Assembly: GCA_028876385.1 (NCBI GenBank)
Contig: JAGWSF010000111.1
Coordinates: 62,001 to 126,000, forward strand
Direction of reading: 5' to 3'
Length of the DNA stretch: 64,000 nucleotides
Source of the DNA: Acidobacteriota bacterium
GTDB taxonomy: Bacteria > Actinomycetota > Acidimicrobiia > Acidimicrobiales > Palsa-688
Below the pieces are notes generated by a model. It had not been told where the DNA came from. It saw only the letters and a program-made list of their open reading frames with translations, and did no database searches. A program made the position numbers and the translations under genes. Below, piece after piece: positions 22,170-28,562 of the stretch (positions are counted from its first letter, which is position 1; the number at the start of each line of letters is the position of its first letter).

Positions 22170-22883
22170 GTGGCAATTCAGGCGCCCGATGTATGGCAGT
22201 CACTGGACGAGCCATTCTGGAAGAAGGAGTTCGACCGCTGGGGTCAGCGCACCAACACCAATGTCGGTGACCTGGTCACCTTCGTCGACGCCGTGGAGCG
22301 GTTCCGCAGGCACCCGGTGATGGGCTTCGCCAACTTGGAGCTGGTCGTTCCCTTCATCGGCACCCCCGAGTACGACTGGACCCACGGCTGCGCCTACGAG
22401 TTCCCCCGGGACATCGCCGTGACCATGACCCAGAATCTGCGGACCAACATCGAAGAGGACGAGGAGTACGAGCAACTGGCCCAGGCGGAGATCCCGGTGC
22501 CCCTGGACGCCTTCGACATCGGTCTGGAGTTCGCCGGACGGGAGATCCAGGCGGCCTGGCCTCGCTTCTTCCAGGATTGGCTGGACAGCTACGACGCCGC
22601 CTCGGTCAACCAGGCCGCCCTCAAGGGCATCGAGGACGGAGAAATGATCAATTTCGTCCAGAACGGGGACCTGCTGCTCATCGGGGGAGAGCACGAGCCC
22701 CGCATCCTCGAGATGGTCCGCACGGCGCCCACGTCGCTCGGCAGCATCCAAATCGAGAAGGGCGGCTTCCTGTCCACCGGCAAGCTGAAGGTCTGGGGCT
22801 GCGTGGCCGCCGACCAGGGCGCCTTCAAGACCGCCGTGGCCGAGTTCTCGCAGAAGGGCGTGAGCTTCGTATCCGACCGCTGA
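22170..22883 (+). CDS. Uncharacterised protein
   Basis: 237 aa from GTG 22170, well supported by AAAGGAGAAGG. I recognise no family. It is soluble, acidic and rich in aromatic residues (EPFWKKEFDRWGQR, EYDWTHGCAYEFPRD, AAWPRFFQDWLDSYDAAS), and has no membrane segment, signal peptide or clear nucleotide or metal motif. The C-terminal part (DGEMINFVQNGDLLLIGGEHEPRILE, STGKLKVWGCVA) looks beta-rich. A TAGCAT box at 22126-22131 gives a leader of about 30-35 nt, unlike the leaderless neighbours, and its strong ribosome binding site suggests high expression. Confidence 0.75.
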   Translation: MAIQAPDVWQSLDEPFWKKEFDRWGQRTNTNVGDLVTFVDAVERFRRHPVMGFANLELVVPFIGTPEYDWTHGCAYEFPRDIAVTMTQNLRTNIEEDEEYEQLAQAEIPVPLDAFDIGLEFAGREIQAAWPRFFQDWLDSYDAASVNQAALKGIEDGEMINFVQNGDLLLIGGEHEPRILEMVRTAPTSLGSIQIEKGGFLSTGKLKVWGCVAADQGAFKTAVAEFSQKGVSFVSDR

Positions 22884-22897
22884 TCTGCTCAGCCAGA

Positions 22898-23602
22898 TCA
22901 GGGATCGACGGTGCCCGCTTCGATCCCGCCGGCGGTGGGGACTCCGGGGTGGGCACAATCGTCGCTCGGGCCATCGGCGGGGTGGGCCCCGATGGCCGCC
23001 GAGCAGCGATCGAGGGCGGACTGCAGGCGCAACTGCATCACGGTGGTGGTCACGTCGCTGCGGGTGCGCTCGACGACGGCCCGCAAGGCGTCGGCGCTGC
23101 GGCGAAGACCGCCGGTGACGGCGTCGGGAAAGTCCACCCCGACCAGCGCTTCGTAGGTCTCCTCCATGCGCTCTAGCAGCCCCTCGGCCGTCCCGGTCCG
23201 TCCCTGACGGAGCCGGTCGAGCAGGTGCCGACGCAGCTCCGACGCCGCCTCGGCCAGGCCGTTCAGCCAGGCCGGAACGCCCACCCCGAGCACCTCGGGG
23301 CCGGGCAGGGGTGTGCCCCCCACCAGCGCTCGGGTCAGCACCGCCTCGGCGTACTCCTTCTCGGCGTCGTGGAGGAACCCGGCGTAGGCCACCGCCGGGT
23401 ACGGGGCGAGCGCCTCCTGAGCCCGGCGCAACGCCGCTTCGCTGTCAGCTATGAAGGCGGCGGCCTGGTCGTCGTCGAGGCGGTGCACCGCCCGGATGGC
23501 GCTGCTGGCCGCCCGCACCACCTCCCGGCACCGGGGTAGGCCGGCCTCCCGGGCGCCGTGGACCGCGGCCAGCTCCTGGCGGGCGGCGGCTACGAGCGAC
23601 AC
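22898..23602 (-). CDS. Translin-family protein (archaeal Trax/translin-like)
   Basis: 234 aa. The whole length follows the all-helical translin family: REVVRAASSAIRAVHR, YPAVAYAGFLHDAEKEYAEA, WLNGLAEAASELRRHLLD, RMEETYEALVGVDFPDAVTGGLRR and ADALRAVVERTRSDVTT. The acidic helix DAEKEYAEA is where TRAX-type proteins carry catalytic Glu residues. Translin/TRAX form octameric RNA-binding shells (C3PO) with RNase activity in eukaryotes; archaeal homologues are closest by pattern. Bacterial members are uncommon. It lies 59 bp after the GlpR-like gene on the same strand, and may be co-transcribed. An RNA-processing role is inference. Confidence 0.85.
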   Translation of the reverse strand: MSLVAAARQELAAVHGAREAGLPRCREVVRAASSAIRAVHRLDDDQAAAFIADSEAALRRAQEALAPYPAVAYAGFLHDAEKEYAEAVLTRALVGGTPLPGPEVLGVGVPAWLNGLAEAASELRRHLLDRLRQGRTGTAEGLLERMEETYEALVGVDFPDAVTGGLRRSADALRAVVERTRSDVTTTVMQLRLQSALDRCSAAIGAHPADGPSDDCAHPGVPTAGGIEAGTVDP

Positions 23603-23661
23603 CAGTTCGGCAGCCGTGCCGGGGCCGGGGCCGGCCGGCGGCGGAGAGTCCTCCGACGGGT

Positions 23662-24231
23662 TCAGTTGGCCACGCGGCGCAGGTCCAGCTCACCGTAGCC
23701 TGCGGCCCCGAAGTCGTATCCTCCCCGGCGGGCCACCACGGCGGTACGCGCCGGGGGCATGTACCGGAGCTTCATCTCCCGCTCGGCGGCCCGGTTACGC
23801 AGGTTGACCAGGATGGCGACGTAGGCCACGAAGACGATGTCGAACAGGACCTGCACCGACCACATGATGGACAGGCCAGGGAGCATGGCCAAGGCGAGCG
23901 AACCGACGGTGCCGGCGAGCAGGACGAAGAACACGTCCCGGCGCCGCTTCTGGGTCTGACGGCGACGCAGGGCGGCGCTGTTGGATGCCAGCGGGCGGGA
24001 CATCCGGCCGGGGGTGGGACGACCGGCGAGGGGAGCGGGTTGGCGCCGGGCCGGGCCGGCCAGCCGGTTGGCCGGCCTCACCACGGTGGGGGTGGTCTTC
24101 TCCAGCACGTTCAGGTGGTGACGGAAGGTCACCACCGGGTCGCTGAAACCCGCCGCCGAGCGGGAGCGCAGCCATGAGAGCAGCAGGACTCCCCATATCA
24201 GTGCAAGCACCAGCAGAACCACAGTGGTCAA
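23662..24231 (-). CDS. GlpR/SepX-like divisome membrane protein
   Basis: 189 aa; start TTG 24231 or GTG 24222 after AAGGAG. Layout: an N-terminal membrane segment (VVLLVLALIWGVLLLSWL), a short conserved-looking FSDPVVTFRHHLNVLEKT, a basic disordered stretch (about 55-95), two more membrane segments (VFFVLLAGTVGSLALAML, VLFDIVFVAYVAILV), and a C-terminal tail with YDFGAAGYGELDLRRVAN. This matches the architecture of SepX/GlpR, the membrane partner of the MoeA-like Glp in actinobacterial cell division. The same strand carries galU, moeA/glp, moaA and moaC upstream, the neighbourhood in which glpR is known. Identity rests on architecture and context rather than strong sequence signatures. Confidence 0.65.
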   Translation of the reverse strand: MTTVVLLVLALIWGVLLLSWLRSRSAAGFSDPVVTFRHHLNVLEKTTPTVVRPANRLAGPARRQPAPLAGRPTPGRMSRPLASNSAALRRRQTQKRRRDVFFVLLAGTVGSLALAMLPGLSIMWSVQVLFDIVFVAYVAILVNLRNRAAEREMKLRYMPPARTAVVARRGGYDFGAAGYGELDLRRVAN

Positions 24232-24357
24232 GACTCCTTGGCCTACCCTTCGATGTCAGGGACCGTAAGGGATGACGCGCTCAAAGTGGTGGATACCACC
24301 GCTTCTCCGCACAATCTCTCAGGTCCAGCCGGTTGGTTTCGGGGAACGAGAACTGGG

Positions 24358-24386
24358 AATTCAGCGATCGTTAAGGTCCCGGTCAA
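24358..24386 (-). promoter_or_regulatory. Possible promoter for the GlpR-like/translin pair
   Basis: On the minus strand TTGACC (plus 24381-24386) is followed after 17 bp by TGAATT (plus 24358-24363). It sits in a 193-bp gap between moaC and the GlpR-like gene, with locally lower GC, and would give a leader of about 120 nt. The -10 match is only partial. Confidence 0.4.
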
Positions 24387-24424
24387 CCTAGCCGACGCGC
24401 CGGAGGCTGCCAACCGCCGACCAC

Positions 24425-25012
24425 TCACAGTGGCTGGTCGTCGTCGCTCTCGGTGCCTATGAGGGCGTCTATATCGCTGTCCAGGTCGTCGATGTTGGGC
24501 ATGGGCGTATTCACCAACGGCATCGACAGCTCCCCGGGGGGGCGGCGCCAGTGACCGCTGCGGCCGCCGGTCTTCTCCCACAGGGCCAGCTCACCGATGA
24601 CCATCGACCGGTCGGCCGACTTGCACATGTCGTAGATGGTCAGGGCGGCGATGGAGCAGGCCGTCATGGCCTCCATCTCGACCCCCGTCCGGTCGACGGT
24701 CTCGACCTGGGTCTCGACCTCGACGTAGTTATCCCCGAGGTTGAAGTTGATGGTCACCGCCCCGACCAGCAGCGGGTGGCAGAGAGGGATCATGTCGGCG
24801 GTCCGCTTGGCGGCCTGGATGCCGGCAATGCGAGCTGCCCCCAAGACGTCACCCTTGGACATGGCGTTGGCCGCCACCTTGCCCGTGGTCTCGGGCATCA
24901 TGAACACCTTGCAGCGGGCGATGGCCCGCCGGTGCGTAGCCTCCTTGGGGGTGACATCGACCATCCGGGCGCGCCCGAGAGGATCGATATGGGTGAGACC
25001 GCGGTCCGACAT
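24425..25012 (-). CDS. moaC: Cyclic pyranopterin monophosphate synthase MoaC
   Basis: 195 aa. Signatures: LTHIDPLGRARMVDV, IPLCHPLLVGAV, TGVEMEAMTACSIAALTIYDMCKS, and the catalytic Lys in YDMCK. It converts the MoaA product into cyclic pyranopterin monophosphate, the first stable molybdopterin intermediate. The last 35 residues (MPNIDDLDSDIDALIGTESDDD) form an acidic tail not present in the E. coli enzyme, probably disordered. It follows moaA by 24 bp. No moaE, moaD or mog is in the window. Confidence 0.96.
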   Translation of the reverse strand: MSDRGLTHIDPLGRARMVDVTPKEATHRRAIARCKVFMMPETTGKVAANAMSKGDVLGAARIAGIQAAKRTADMIPLCHPLLVGAVTINFNLGDNYVEVETQVETVDRTGVEMEAMTACSIAALTIYDMCKSADRSMVIGELALWEKTGGRSGHWRRPPGELSMPLVNTPMPNIDDLDSDIDALIGTESDDDQPL

Positions 25013-25036: not shown

Positions 25037-26032
25037 TCAGCCGCCGATCTGGCTCATGCTGCGGCCGGGGCGTATGAAGTGCACCTGACCTATGGAGTGG
25101 CCCGCCCACTTGCGGCCGACCTCGGCCTCGATGGCTGCAGCGAGGTCGTCGTCGCTGCCCCCACCGCGCAGGATGGGACGCAGATCGGTCTCGCGCACAG
25201 CGAAGAGGCAGTTGCGCAGGTGACCGTCAGAGGTCAGCCGGACCCGGTCACACGTCGAGCAGAACGACCGGGTGACGCTGGCGATTACCCCGATCCGGCC
25301 CTTGCCATCGGCGTAGCGGTAGCTCTCGGCCGGCGACGCCGGGTCGGCCGCCCGGCCGTCCCCCGTCTCTAGCGGCCACTGCTCGGCCACGGCGGCGATG
25401 ATCTCCCCGGCGGGCACGACCTGACCGGCGTTCCAGGTGCCCCCACCGTCGAGGGGCATCCACTCTATGAACCGGACCTCCACGCCGCGCTGGCGGCCGA
25501 AGGCGGCGAAGTCCACAATCTCGTCGTCGTTGACCCCGCGCATGATGACGCAGTTGAGCTTGACCGGGTCGAGACCGGCATCGATGGCCGCGTCGATCCC
25601 GGCCAGCACCCGATCGAGGGCGTCACGGCCGGTGACCGTGGCGAAGCGGTCGGCGCGCAGGGAGTCCAATGAGATGTTGATCCGGGTCAGCCCGGCCCGC
25701 TTCAGCTCGGCCGCCTGGTGCTCCAGGGTGGAGCCGTTGGTGGTCATGGCCAGGTCCACCCCGAGCTCGGCCAGCCGCCCGATCAGGACCGGCAGGTGGG
25801 CCCGTACGGTGGGTTCGCCGCCGGTGACCCGGATGCTCTCGAAGCCGAAGCGTTCGACACAGACCCGCGCCACCCGGGCCAGCTCCTCGTAAGTGAGGAG
25901 CTCGTCGCGGGGCATCCACTCCATACCCTCGGCGGGCATGCAGTAGGTGCAGCGGAAGTTGCACCGGTCGGTGATCGAGACCCGCAGGTCTCGGACGACG
26001 CGGTTGAAGGGGTCCACCAGTGGTTCGGCCAC
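25037..26032 (-). CDS. moaA: GTP 3',8-cyclase MoaA
   Basis: 331 aa radical SAM enzyme. The N-terminal cluster CxxxCxxC is Cys24, Cys28 and Cys31 (TDRCNFRCTYCMPAEG). The C-terminal cluster binding GTP is SFCSTCDRVRLTSDGHLRNC. VTGGEPTVR is the GGEP-type SAM motif. It converts GTP to 3',8-cyclo-7,8-dihydroguanosine triphosphate for molybdopterin synthesis. It starts 13 bp after the MoeA-family gene ends. It ends without the usual C-terminal GG tail, closing SIGQVHFIRPGRSMSQIGG, which does finish in Gly-Gly. Confidence 0.96.
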   Translation of the reverse strand: MAEPLVDPFNRVVRDLRVSITDRCNFRCTYCMPAEGMEWMPRDELLTYEELARVARVCVERFGFESIRVTGGEPTVRAHLPVLIGRLAELGVDLAMTTNGSTLEHQAAELKRAGLTRINISLDSLRADRFATVTGRDALDRVLAGIDAAIDAGLDPVKLNCVIMRGVNDDEIVDFAAFGRQRGVEVRFIEWMPLDGGGTWNAGQVVPAGEIIAAVAEQWPLETGDGRAADPASPAESYRYADGKGRIGVIASVTRSFCSTCDRVRLTSDGHLRNCLFAVRETDLRPILRGGGSDDDLAAAIEAEVGRKWAGHSIGQVHFIRPGRSMSQIGG

Positions 26033-26045
26033 GACGCCGACCAGC

Positions 26046-27266
26046 CTACGGGGTCAGGCGCAGGACCGCGACGGTGTCGCCGCGTCCGACGTCGACCCCC
26101 GGCGGCGACACGGCCAGAGCGTCGGCCTGGGCCATGGCGTAGAGCTGATGCGATGCCTGCCCACCGGAGCTGACCACCCGCAGCCGGCCGTCGTCATCGA
26201 AGCGGGTCGAGACCCGTACGTAGCTGGTCCGGCCGTCCCGGCTACCCGACCAGCCCTCGTCGTCGGTCACCCCCGGCAGCGGTCGTCGGTGCAGGTCGTC
26301 GTCGGGGCGGCCCCCCATGCGCCGCAGCCCGGGCCGGGCCAGCAGCTCGTAGCTGACCATCGAAGACACGGGATTACCGGGCAGGCCGAACACCGGCGTG
26401 TCACCGATGACCCCGAAGGCGAACGGCTTGGCCGGCCGGATGGCGACCTGCATCCAGCGCATCCGACCGATGCGGTCGAGCACCGCCTTGACGTAGTCGA
26501 AGTCCCCCATGCTGACCCCGCCGCTGGTGATCACCGCGTCGCAACTCTCCACCCCGGCCCGCAGGGCGGTCTCGATCATCTCCTCGTCGTCGCGGGCGAT
26601 GCCCAGATCCACGGCCCGAAACCCGTCGCGGGTGAGCAGCGAGAGCAGCGTGCGGCGATTGGAGTCCCTGATCTGACCGCGTTCGAGCGGACCGCCCCCC
26701 TCCACCAGCTCGTCGCCGGTGGACAGCACCCCGACCGCCGGCGCCGGCACCACCTGCACCGACGGGCAGCCGACGCTGCAGAGCACCCCGAGGTGGCCGG
26801 GACCGAGCACCGTGCCGGCCGGGAAGAGTTCCTGCCCGACGGCGATGTCGTCGCCGGCCGCCCGGATGTGGGCTCCGACGTGCGCCGGGGCGACGATCTC
26901 CACGAAATCTCCGTCGCTACGGGTGCTCTCCACCACGGCGACGGCGTCGGCCCCGTCGGGGAAGACGGCGCCGGTCATGATGCGCAGGGCCTCCCCGCGG
27001 CCCACCGCCCGGGACGGGGCCCGCCCGGCGCCGAGGGTGCCGATCACCTTCAAGCGGACCGGGTGCTCGGGTGACGCATCGGCCAGATCGGCGCCGTGCA
27101 CGGCGAAGCCGTCCATGGCGGTGTTGCGGAACGGGGGAACCGCCTCGGCGGCGTCGACCCGGCCGGCCAGGGTGAGCCCCAGCACCTCGCCGACCGGGAG
27201 TGAGACGGGCTCGGCCCGACGGCAGGCGGCCAGCACCTCGGCCTGGGCCTCCTCGAGCGGGATCAC
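26046..27266 (-). CDS. moeA: MoeA-family molybdopterin molybdotransferase (possible Glp)
   Basis: 406 aa from GTG 27266 (MIPLEEAQAEVLAACR). MoeA/gephyrin E-domain elements: VPPFRNTAMDGFAVHG, RIMTGAVFPDGADAVAVVE, GVLSTGDELVEGG, ITSGGVSMGDFDYVKAVL, and FGLPGNPVSSMVSYELL. MoeA inserts molybdenum into adenylated molybdopterin. In corynebacteria and mycobacteria a MoeA paralogue named Glp, encoded next to galU, has been recruited to cell division with the receptor GlpR. The presence here of galU upstream and a GlpR-like gene downstream makes that dual or alternative role plausible. The GTG overlaps the galU stop by 4 nt. Confidence 0.93.
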   Translation of the reverse strand: MIPLEEAQAEVLAACRRAEPVSLPVGEVLGLTLAGRVDAAEAVPPFRNTAMDGFAVHGADLADASPEHPVRLKVIGTLGAGRAPSRAVGRGEALRIMTGAVFPDGADAVAVVESTRSDGDFVEIVAPAHVGAHIRAAGDDIAVGQELFPAGTVLGPGHLGVLCSVGCPSVQVVPAPAVGVLSTGDELVEGGGPLERGQIRDSNRRTLLSLLTRDGFRAVDLGIARDDEEMIETALRAGVESCDAVITSGGVSMGDFDYVKAVLDRIGRMRWMQVAIRPAKPFAFGVIGDTPVFGLPGNPVSSMVSYELLARPGLRRMGGRPDDDLHRRPLPGVTDDEGWSGSRDGRTSYVRVSTRFDDDGRLRVVSSGGQASHQLYAMAQADALAVSPPGVDVGRGDTVAVLRLTP

Positions 27267-28138
27267 CCGCCGCTCACCACTTCTTCGAGGAACGAACGGA
27301 ACTCCGGGCCGAGATCGTCGCGTTCGAGGGCGAAAGTCACGGTGGCCTTCAAGAAGTCCAACTTGTTGCCCACGTCGAATCGTCCCTCCGAGAAGGTGTA
27401 GCCGAATACCGGCTCGCGGTCGAGCAGCCCTTTTATGGCGTCGGTGAGCTGGATCTCCCCGCCCCGGCCTGGTTTGGTGGCCGCGATGGCGTCGAAGATG
27501 GCGGGGGTCAGCACGTAGCGACCCATCACGCCTAGGTCCGAGGGGGCGTCCTCGGGGGCGGGCTTCTCGATCAGGTCTCGGACCTGCACCATCGACCCGT
27601 GGTAGCCGTCGAAGGCCACGCAGCCGTACAGCGAGACCTCCCGGTGGTCCACCTGCTTCAGGCACAGCACCGACGCGCCGGTCTGCTGGTGGGCCACCAG
27701 CATTCCCGACAGGATCGCCGACTTCGGATGACACAGGTCGTCGGGCAGCAGGACGGCGAAAGGCTCGTCACCGACATGGTGGCGGGCCAAGCCGACGGCA
27801 TGGCCCAGCCCGAGCGGCTGGCCCTGGCGGATGAAATGGATCTGCGCCAAGCCGGAGATGGCCCGCACGGCGCTGAGCTCCTCCTCCTTACCGGCCTCCC
27901 GCAGGAATGCCTCGAGCTCCACCGAACGGTCGAAATGGTCCTCGACGTCGCGCTTGCCCCGGCCGGTGACGATCAGGATGTCGGTGATCCCGGCGGCGAC
28001 GGCCTCCTCGACCACGTACTGGATGGAGGGCTTGTCCACCAGCGGCAGCATCTCCTTGGGGACCGCCTTGGTGGCCGGCAGGAACCGGGTTCCCAAGCCG
28101 GCGGCGGGGATGACCGCCTTGCGGACGGAACTGGGCAT
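27263..28138 (-). CDS. galU: UTP-glucose-1-phosphate uridylyltransferase
   Basis: 291 aa from ATG 28138 (MPSSVRKAVIPAAGLGTRF). GalU signatures: PAAGLGTRFLPATKAVPKEMLPLVDKP, GRGKRDVEDHFDRS, GQPLGLGHAV, LLPDDLC, and GGEIQLTDAI. It makes UDP-glucose for envelope glycans and trehalose or glycogen. The operon continues with moeA/glp, moaA and moaC, the first junction overlapping by 4 nt. The divergent partner is the FmdB-like gene 100 bp away, with a CIRCE-type palindrome between them. Confidence 0.95.
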   Translation of the reverse strand: MPSSVRKAVIPAAGLGTRFLPATKAVPKEMLPLVDKPSIQYVVEEAVAAGITDILIVTGRGKRDVEDHFDRSVELEAFLREAGKEEELSAVRAISGLAQIHFIRQGQPLGLGHAVGLARHHVGDEPFAVLLPDDLCHPKSAILSGMLVAHQQTGASVLCLKQVDHREVSLYGCVAFDGYHGSMVQVRDLIEKPAPEDAPSDLGVMGRYVLTPAIFDAIAATKPGRGGEIQLTDAIKGLLDREPVFGYTFSEGRFDVGNKLDFLKATVTFALERDDLGPEFRSFLEEVVSGG

Positions 28139-28188
28139 GGGTGCCTTTCTACCACCCGACCCACCAGCCGAATCCTCCTTGCGTCGGA

Positions 28189-28220
28189 TACACTTGGCAC
28201 TCGACAGCCTTGAGTGCCAA
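28189..28220 (+). promoter_or_regulatory. CIRCE-type operator overlapping a -10 box
   Basis: TTGGCACTC at 28194-28202, a 9-nt spacer, and GAGTGCCAA at 28212-28220 form a perfect inverted repeat. It matches the CIRCE consensus TTAGCACTC-N9-GAGTGCTAA bound by HrcA, with one symmetric change in each arm. A TACACT at 28189-28194 could be the -10 box just upstream, so a bound repressor would cover the transcription start. Confidence 0.85.
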
Positions 28221-28238
28221 CGGCCGGAGGAGCCACCC

Positions 28239-28562
28239 ATGCCCACCTACGAATACGCCTGCAAAGACTGCGGGGAGCACCTCGAGGTGGTGCAGTCGTT
28301 CAAGGACGATGCCTTGACCGACTGCCCAAGCTGCGGGGGGTCGCTGCGGAAGGTCTTCGGGAACATCGGCATCTCCTTCAAGGGGAGCGGTTTCTACAAG
28401 ACCGACAGCCGTAGCTCCTCGTCGTCCTCGAAGACGGCCACGTCGTCAACCTCCCCGGGAGGCTCGGAGACCTCGTCGACGAGCGACTCGTCGAGTGGAT
28501 CGTCGGAGACCAAGACCACCACCAAGAGCGACTCCTCTCCTCCTCCCGCCAAGGCCTCCTAG
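28239..28562 (+). CDS. FmdB-type zinc ribbon protein with Ser-rich tail (Ruc-like redox chaperone)
   Basis: 107 aa from ATG 28239 after GGAGGAG. The first 60 residues are a FmdB zinc ribbon: CxxC at YACKDCGEH and CxxC at TDCPSCGGSLRK, then VFGNIGISFKGSGFYKTD. The rest is a Ser/Thr/Lys-rich disordered tail. This is the layout of mycobacterial Rv0991c (Ruc), a heat-induced redox-regulated holdase chaperone in the HrcA regulon. The perfect CIRCE-type palindrome directly upstream and the adjacent galU-moeA gene pair match that locus, which supports orthology (inference). The stop codon overlaps the convergent tag stop in a CTAG palindrome. Confidence 0.85.
   Translation: MPTYEYACKDCGEHLEVVQSFKDDALTDCPSCGGSLRKVFGNIGISFKGSGFYKTDSRSSSSSSKTATSSTSPGGSETSSTSDSSSGSSETKTTTKSDSSPPPAKAS

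Follow-up and report, generated by a model that had tools for sequence, protein, structure and literature searches.

The window analysed here is a 64,000-nucleotide stretch of contig JAGWSF010000111.1 which carries, on its minus strand, a cluster with the gene order GalU-like, MoeA, MoaA, MoaC, SepX/GlpR-like and translin-like. The cluster starts with an ORF (27263..28246) which has homologues at the same place in relatives and which, from its sequence, we presume to be GalU-like. This is followed by a MoeA/Glp-type ORF (26046..27734, with the Pfam MoeA_N domain at residues 158-322), MoaA (25037..26032, radical SAM and Mob_synth_C domains according to Pfam), MoaC (24425..25012; Pfam PF01967, E 4.4e-52), a SepX/GlpR-like divisome membrane protein of 189 amino acids (23662..24231), and, directly downstream of the latter, a TRAX/translin-like protein of 234 amino acids (P0001; 22898..23602). 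The MoeA ORF, as listed, overlaps the GalU-like ORF with its first ~157 codons and its MoeA domains begin at residue 158; the true start of MoeA is probably near 27262. The MoeA_N match is the only one found in the source genome, so that cofactor synthesis and a Glp-like role may both fall to this one MoeA. On the other side of the translin-like gene, a 237-aa ORF on the plus strand (22170-22883) converges on it; this ORF is matched by no family of Pfam or NCBIfam at E<=1 and by no PHROG, and its only homologue among 81 loci, the window's included, is found at locus L002 (87% identical).

The reading frame of the translin-like gene runs on the minus strand from a GTG at 23602 to a stop codon ending at 22898. 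The coordinates given in the initial annotation are correct, and the four motifs quoted there are all present in the 234-aa translation. The neighbour, which had been called GlpR-like, does adjoin the gene, and its probable identity is that of a SepX/GlpR divisome protein, assigned from NCBIfam NF050099 (SepX_GlpR_2; E 5.4e-7, 29.8 bits, below the cut-off of 150) and from its position, since a homologous ORF lies directly upstream of translin in many relatives. SepX/GlpR proteins are described as very divergent, with less than 10% identity (PMC8748795). A glycerol repressor, the other meaning of the name GlpR, was ruled out by the scores on the SepX/GlpR divisome models. The stop codon of sepX and the start of the translin-like gene are separated by 59 nt. 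The common strand, this short gap, a scan of 22700-24500 that found no terminator-like or promoter-like site, and the adjacency of SepX in relatives support an operon-like layout.

Membership of the translin/TRAX superfamily, proposed in the initial annotation from the sequence, is borne out over the full length of the protein. As a single sequence compared by phmmer with the PDB, the protein matches AfTrax of Archaeoglobus (E 1.1e-18, residues 7-187) and, among solved structures, NEQ131 of Nanoarchaeum (E 9e-4). A profile of 40 bacterial members (A1) finds AfTrax at 1.6e-36 and NEQ131 at 2.9e-15, and extends to the TRAX proteins of eukaryotes (human TRAX 3.9e-5, Drosophila TRAX about 3e-4 to 4e-4); none of the translin chains among the solved structures is matched up to E 10. 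Because the profile recovers AfTrax, NEQ131, and human and Drosophila TRAX without the translin chains, the window protein is a translin-superfamily member of the archaeal/TRAX-like rather than the translin-like kind. The search with the translin family itself, suggested as a check, gave a divided answer: the profile of the bacterial family makes the matches just described, while the Pfam Translin model (PF01997) finds nothing in the 234-aa protein at E<=1 and nothing in the whole source genome. Taken at face value, the silence of PF01997 is one of the outcomes that the initial annotation named as refuting its proposal. The same Pfam model does match three archaeal control genomes (Methanocaldococcus, Sulfolobus and Methanosarcina). 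PF01997 is too insensitive for this branch, and its silence, a property of the model, is overridden by the homology to solved members and by the translin bundle of the fold.

The names found in NCBIfam point elsewhere. All six sub-models of PRK14562 (NF011156-NF011161) match the protein, the best being NF011160 (E 2.5e-70) with 236 bits, which is below its cut-off of 291 bits; this cut-off is exceeded in 23 of 151 genomes from the phylum of a Dehalococcoidia genome. The curated name of NF011160/PRK14562 is "haloacid dehalogenase superfamily protein". Such an identity was rejected, as no HAD Pfam family is matched at E<=1, the model is all-helical, and the top structural rows are all C3PO or translin. 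The curated name appears to be wrong; the family is translin/TRAX-like.

The AlphaFold2 monomer model built from A1 has a mean pLDDT of 92.5 and a pTM of 0.83, with lower confidence in the last ~30 residues. Its helices span residues 2-40, 44-65, 76-95, 109-132, 136-154 and 166-205, in addition to some short ones. In VIA-align, the model superposes on AfC3PO with Z 23.7 (1.8 A over 190 residues), followed among other chains by NeC3PO (Z 20.9), human TRAX chain J (19.6) and the full-length translins (15-17). The 16 best rows are all translin, TRAX or C3PO, with Z from 23.7 to 12.2, and the first unrelated row is at 9.8. For helical bundles, a Z value below about 13 may be of little significance, and the C3PO rows of the predicted model are well above this level; a fold by itself, however, does not demonstrate a function. 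Foldseek agrees, the best 22 matches being all AfC3PO, NeC3PO, translin or TRAX, with a TMt of 0.88-0.90 for the best AfC3PO chains. The comparison with C3PO thus recovers the all-helical translin bundle that had been anticipated, and the statement that the protein looks closest to archaeal forms holds among solved relatives, in the order AfC3PO, human TRAX, translin. With AfC3PO/AfTrax (Archaeoglobus fulgidus; PDB 3zc0, 3zc1), the window protein shares full-length homology (30-32% identity in structure alignments), the acidic cluster described below, and the DA..E..EA and NG..[DE]..xELRR motifs; unlike AfTrax, it has a Glu instead of an Asp at position 118 and a ~30-residue low-confidence C-terminal tail, it is bacterial, and it is encoded next to sepX. 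NeC3PO/NEQ131 (Nanoarchaeum equitans; PDB 5jr9, 5jrc, 5jre), likewise a single-gene system, is 19% identical and has an Asp in its GIGDIAGE motif, and human TRAX in C3PO (PDB 3pja, 3qb5) is 15% identical.

A search of the source genome returned a single translin-type gene. Eukaryotic TRAX works with translin as a second subunit, whereas no such partner was found in the window genome; with one copy, the two-subunit composition of eukaryotic C3PO is absent and the protein could form at most an archaeal-type single-gene C3PO.

The protein carries an acidic cluster formed by two motifs. The first, D79-AEKEYAE-A87 (23342..23368, minus strand), contains E83 (23354-23356) and E86 (23345-23347), and is invariant in 81 of 81 copies apart from A87. 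The second, G115-LAEAASEL-R124-R125 (23228..23260, minus strand), contains E118 and E122. Conservation was followed over 121 loci, namely the window's own (L001), 80 kept of 88 close-similarity places, and 40 picked for family spread from genomes already matching; the set includes two pairs of identical proteins (L050/L089 and L039/L084) and three partial or masked copies (L033, L072 and L078). E83, E86 and E122 are each kept in all 121 bacterial copies, while at position 118 there are 115 copies with Glu and six with Asp, so that this site too is acidic throughout. The six Asp118 copies (L102-L107) belong to a lineage with genomes of ~1 Mb. Other invariant or nearly invariant residues are R18, R26, H40, R124, R125, D129, D171, R174 and R181. 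We take E83, E86, D/E118 and E122 to occupy the positions of the TRAX nuclease site (Glu, Glu, Asp, Glu). The residue of AfTrax that matches position 118 is an Asp; at this very place, the AfC3PO-duplex RNA entry 3zc0 has Ala and 3zc1 has Asp, which suggests that in 3zc0 a catalytic residue was inactivated by the depositors so as to keep the RNA bound. Such strict conservation of acidic residues argues for an enzyme. The change from Asp to Glu at position 118 is the main ground for caution, since it could weaken or retune metal binding.

The initial annotation regarded a translin-family protein as unusual in bacteria, which is overstated. The close relatives kept from the species-representative genome collection are labelled mainly as Acidimicrobiia and other Actinomycetota, Dehalococcoidia and other Chloroflexi, Zipacnadia, and Eremiobacterota. 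Of the genomes drawn from the window's phylum, 111 of 296 carry the family, as do 107 of 198 drawn from its class (105 without two weak partial matches, G080 and G113) and 82 of the 151 from the phylum of a Dehalococcoidia genome. In the ~1-Mb genus, the gene is found in 30 of 42 genomes, and in five of the eight more complete ones. The translin/TRAX-like family is thus ordinary in these phyla. A 2012 paper on the evolution of the translin superfamily already has eubacteria in its title (cited in PMC5424206, PMC8762117 and PMC3834833). In a tree, the copies mostly sort by phylum or class, a pattern compatible with vertical descent but no proof of it. Many forks are open, the long branch of L117 (~10) is a trimming artefact, and the archaeal rows, just two and both with very long branches, could not be placed in the phylogeny; the tree speaks neither for nor against a recent transfer from archaea. 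A mobile or plasmid-borne gene was also considered and rejected, as no match was found in plasmids (where the AfTrax stretch has none either), no relative on viral contigs, and no PHROG match. Three copies come from MAGs labelled Burkholderiales or Acidobacteriota (L038, L013 and L039) and group with UBP9/Eremiobacterota or Actinomycetota, that of L039 being identical to L084 from the window's phylum; these are probable cases of misbinned or mislabelled MAGs.

The position of the gene, behind a GlpR-like gene in a molybdopterin/division cluster, had been left with no obvious explanation, and here the available literature and the relatives say otherwise. In Streptomyces, the formation of cross-walls and sporulation septa is reported to require SepX (PMC8748795). 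In Corynebacterium, GlpR is described as the membrane receptor of the MoeA-like protein Glp, and glp and glpr as co-localised in a well-conserved context (PMC10522489). The mixed character of the cluster follows from this published link between SepX/GlpR and a MoeA-like Glp. The SepX-translin pair, for its part, is conserved across Actinomycetota. Clustering of the ORFs of the 121 translin loci showed that in 60 the ORF directly upstream, on the strand of translin, is SepX-like, and a SepX profile made from those 60 found 67; together with five loci from the ORF clusters (L012, L018, L021, L027 and L110), the pair is present in 72 of 121. In 64 of the 67, SepX lies between -63 and 188 nt of the translin start, and in three it is further off. 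Of the 72 pairs, 46 also have galU, moeA, moaA or moaC within the sequence retrieved; in 21 these genes are missing although 4 kb or more of upstream sequence is available, and for the remaining five the sequence is too short. In the draw from the class, SepX lies just upstream, on the same contig and strand, in 68 of 74 translin genomes tested. These 74 are what remains of 105 translin genomes after setting aside those of the ~1-Mb genus (30) and one with a split match (G437). In two of the six genomes lacking the pair (G296 and G411), the distance to SepX exceeds 1 kb; for the other four, the SepX match may be among those not listed. In the ~1-Mb genus itself, a short SepX-like ORF (cluster 58) is found a few bases upstream in all six fetched loci (L102-L107), with profile E values of 1.6e-8 to 3.6e-10 in four rows.

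The two genes are also found apart. SepX is present by profile in 140 of 198 class genomes, many of them without translin, and it is therefore independent of translin. Translin without a SepX neighbour occurs in Dehalococcoidia, Zipacnadia, Eremiobacterota and some Actinomycetota. Judged by eye from their sequences, the neighbours are an FmdB-like small protein and RNase HII-like genes in Dehalococcoidia, subunits of a 2-oxoacid:ferredoxin oxidoreductase in Zipacnadia-type loci (preceding translin in ten: L049, L055, L062, L064, L065, L067, L071, L076, L079 and L081), and a cyclase-like gene with an aminotransferase in another actinobacterial group. The neighbourhood thus changes once Actinomycetota are left, and no RNA-processing gene stands constantly beside translin in these loci, which weighs against the nuclease reading given below. 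The pair is thus an actinomycetotal feature that outlasts the surrounding cluster, and the position of the gene is not accidental, given that SepX lies upstream in nearly all translin-bearing class genomes tested and that the pair persists in 21 loci without the moa, moe or galU genes. The pair may reflect a shared task or shared expression alone. A comparable arrangement is provided by the archaeal TRAX-SepRS operons (described in PMC5424206 and PMC8762117), where TRAX likewise shares a conserved operon with a cellular system to which it is unrelated; the partner there is an aminoacyl-tRNA synthetase, whereas in the window it is a divisome membrane protein.

Taken as a whole, these data make it probable that the gene encodes a bacterial translin-superfamily protein of the catalytic TRAX/archaeal C3PO kind, that is, a homo-oligomeric, metal-dependent endoribonuclease co-expressed with SepX. 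TRAX is reported to be the catalytic subunit that carries the catalytic sites of C3PO (PMC3834833), and the Trax of N. equitans to degrade RNA alone, via oligomerisation (PMC9051087). The window protein would be translated from the sepX transcript, 59 nt behind sepX, and its amount would therefore follow that of a divisome protein. C3PO assemblies are octamers that enclose their active sites. Since the genome has one copy of the gene and the search revealed no other translin-type subunit, the protein would self-assemble in the manner of AfC3PO and NeC3PO, and the resulting oligomer, shaped like a shell or barrel, would contain several active sites. There, E83, E86, E118 and E122 are predicted to bind a divalent metal, and short single-stranded or structured RNA would be cleaved. 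Processing debris such as tRNA leader fragments is a plausible class of substrate by analogy with the Neurospora C3PO, which removes 5' fragments of pre-tRNA (PMC3834833). No experimental work on a bacterial member of the superfamily was found in the open-licence literature.

The replacement of the catalytic Asp by Glu invites a different reading, in which the bacterial protein would be a non-catalytic oligomer that binds RNA or DNA. The prevalence of Glu at position 118 (115 of 121 copies, against the Asp of AfTrax) is what speaks for it. Residues such as these, however, usually drift once catalysis is lost, and in this family E83, E86 and E122 do not vary, position 118 never ceases to be acidic, and the ~1-Mb lineage has Asp at that place; a purely binding protein is accordingly rather unlikely. 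A role in cell division together with SepX, for instance as a partner of the Glp-SepX complex in the cytosol or as a septal RNase, would mean that the RNase fold was recruited to serve the divisome, and is compatible with an endoribonuclease of the archaeal kind. It draws on how often SepX adjoins translin (68 of the 74 class genomes tested, 72 of the 121 loci), on the 21 pairs kept without moaC, moaA, moeA and galU, and on the short SepX-like ORF of the ~1-Mb genus. Against this, translin does without a SepX neighbour in several groups, SepX occurs without translin, co-expression alone can keep gene order, and no paper on both translin and the divisome was found in the open-licence literature, so that such a role is unlikely on present evidence. 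Its most explicit form, in which an archaeal-type C3PO made from one transcript with SepX/GlpR would be a divisome partner in Actinomycetota and act on RNA at or near Glp-SepX-FtsZ, is quite unlikely.

It could also be thought that the translin-like protein replaces oligoribonuclease (Orn) in finishing RNA decay. Among 136 high-quality class genomes, 34 have both genes, 33 only translin, 50 only Orn, and 19 neither. The 33 with translin and without Orn, set against the 19 lacking both, speak for this idea; the odds ratio over the four groups is 0.39 (p 0.013, uncorrected for kinship). The genomes with both and with neither do not fit an exchange of one enzyme for the other, nor does the window genome, which carries both (and stands outside the 136 owing to its contamination value), and the pattern looks like one or a few lineage losses of Orn. 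The association is weak and confounded by kinship, the counts do not support a simple replacement, and this idea is very improbable. Several families of the class (f11, f12, f13, f81, f89, f94 and others) have no Orn match, and many of their genomes have translin; these families are a possible lead on RNA decay, a weak one without correction for kinship.

The translin superfamily is itself known, chiefly from archaea and eukaryotes, and work on it has centred on RNA interference and tRNA processing in the latter; it is nonetheless encoded by a large share of the genomes in at least two bacterial phyla, where the insensitivity of the Pfam model and what appears to be a wrong NCBI name have kept its members out of sight. 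The pairing with SepX is apparently the undescribed part: no description of such a link was found in the open-licence literature, and the word "translin" is absent from the main text of the Glp/GlpR paper (PMC10522489). This pairing offers a handle on the ancestral function of C3PO and on a possible link between RNA and division. If the divisome reading were true, RNA turnover would be tied to cytokinesis in these bacteria, through an ancient two-gene module that has outlived its cluster.
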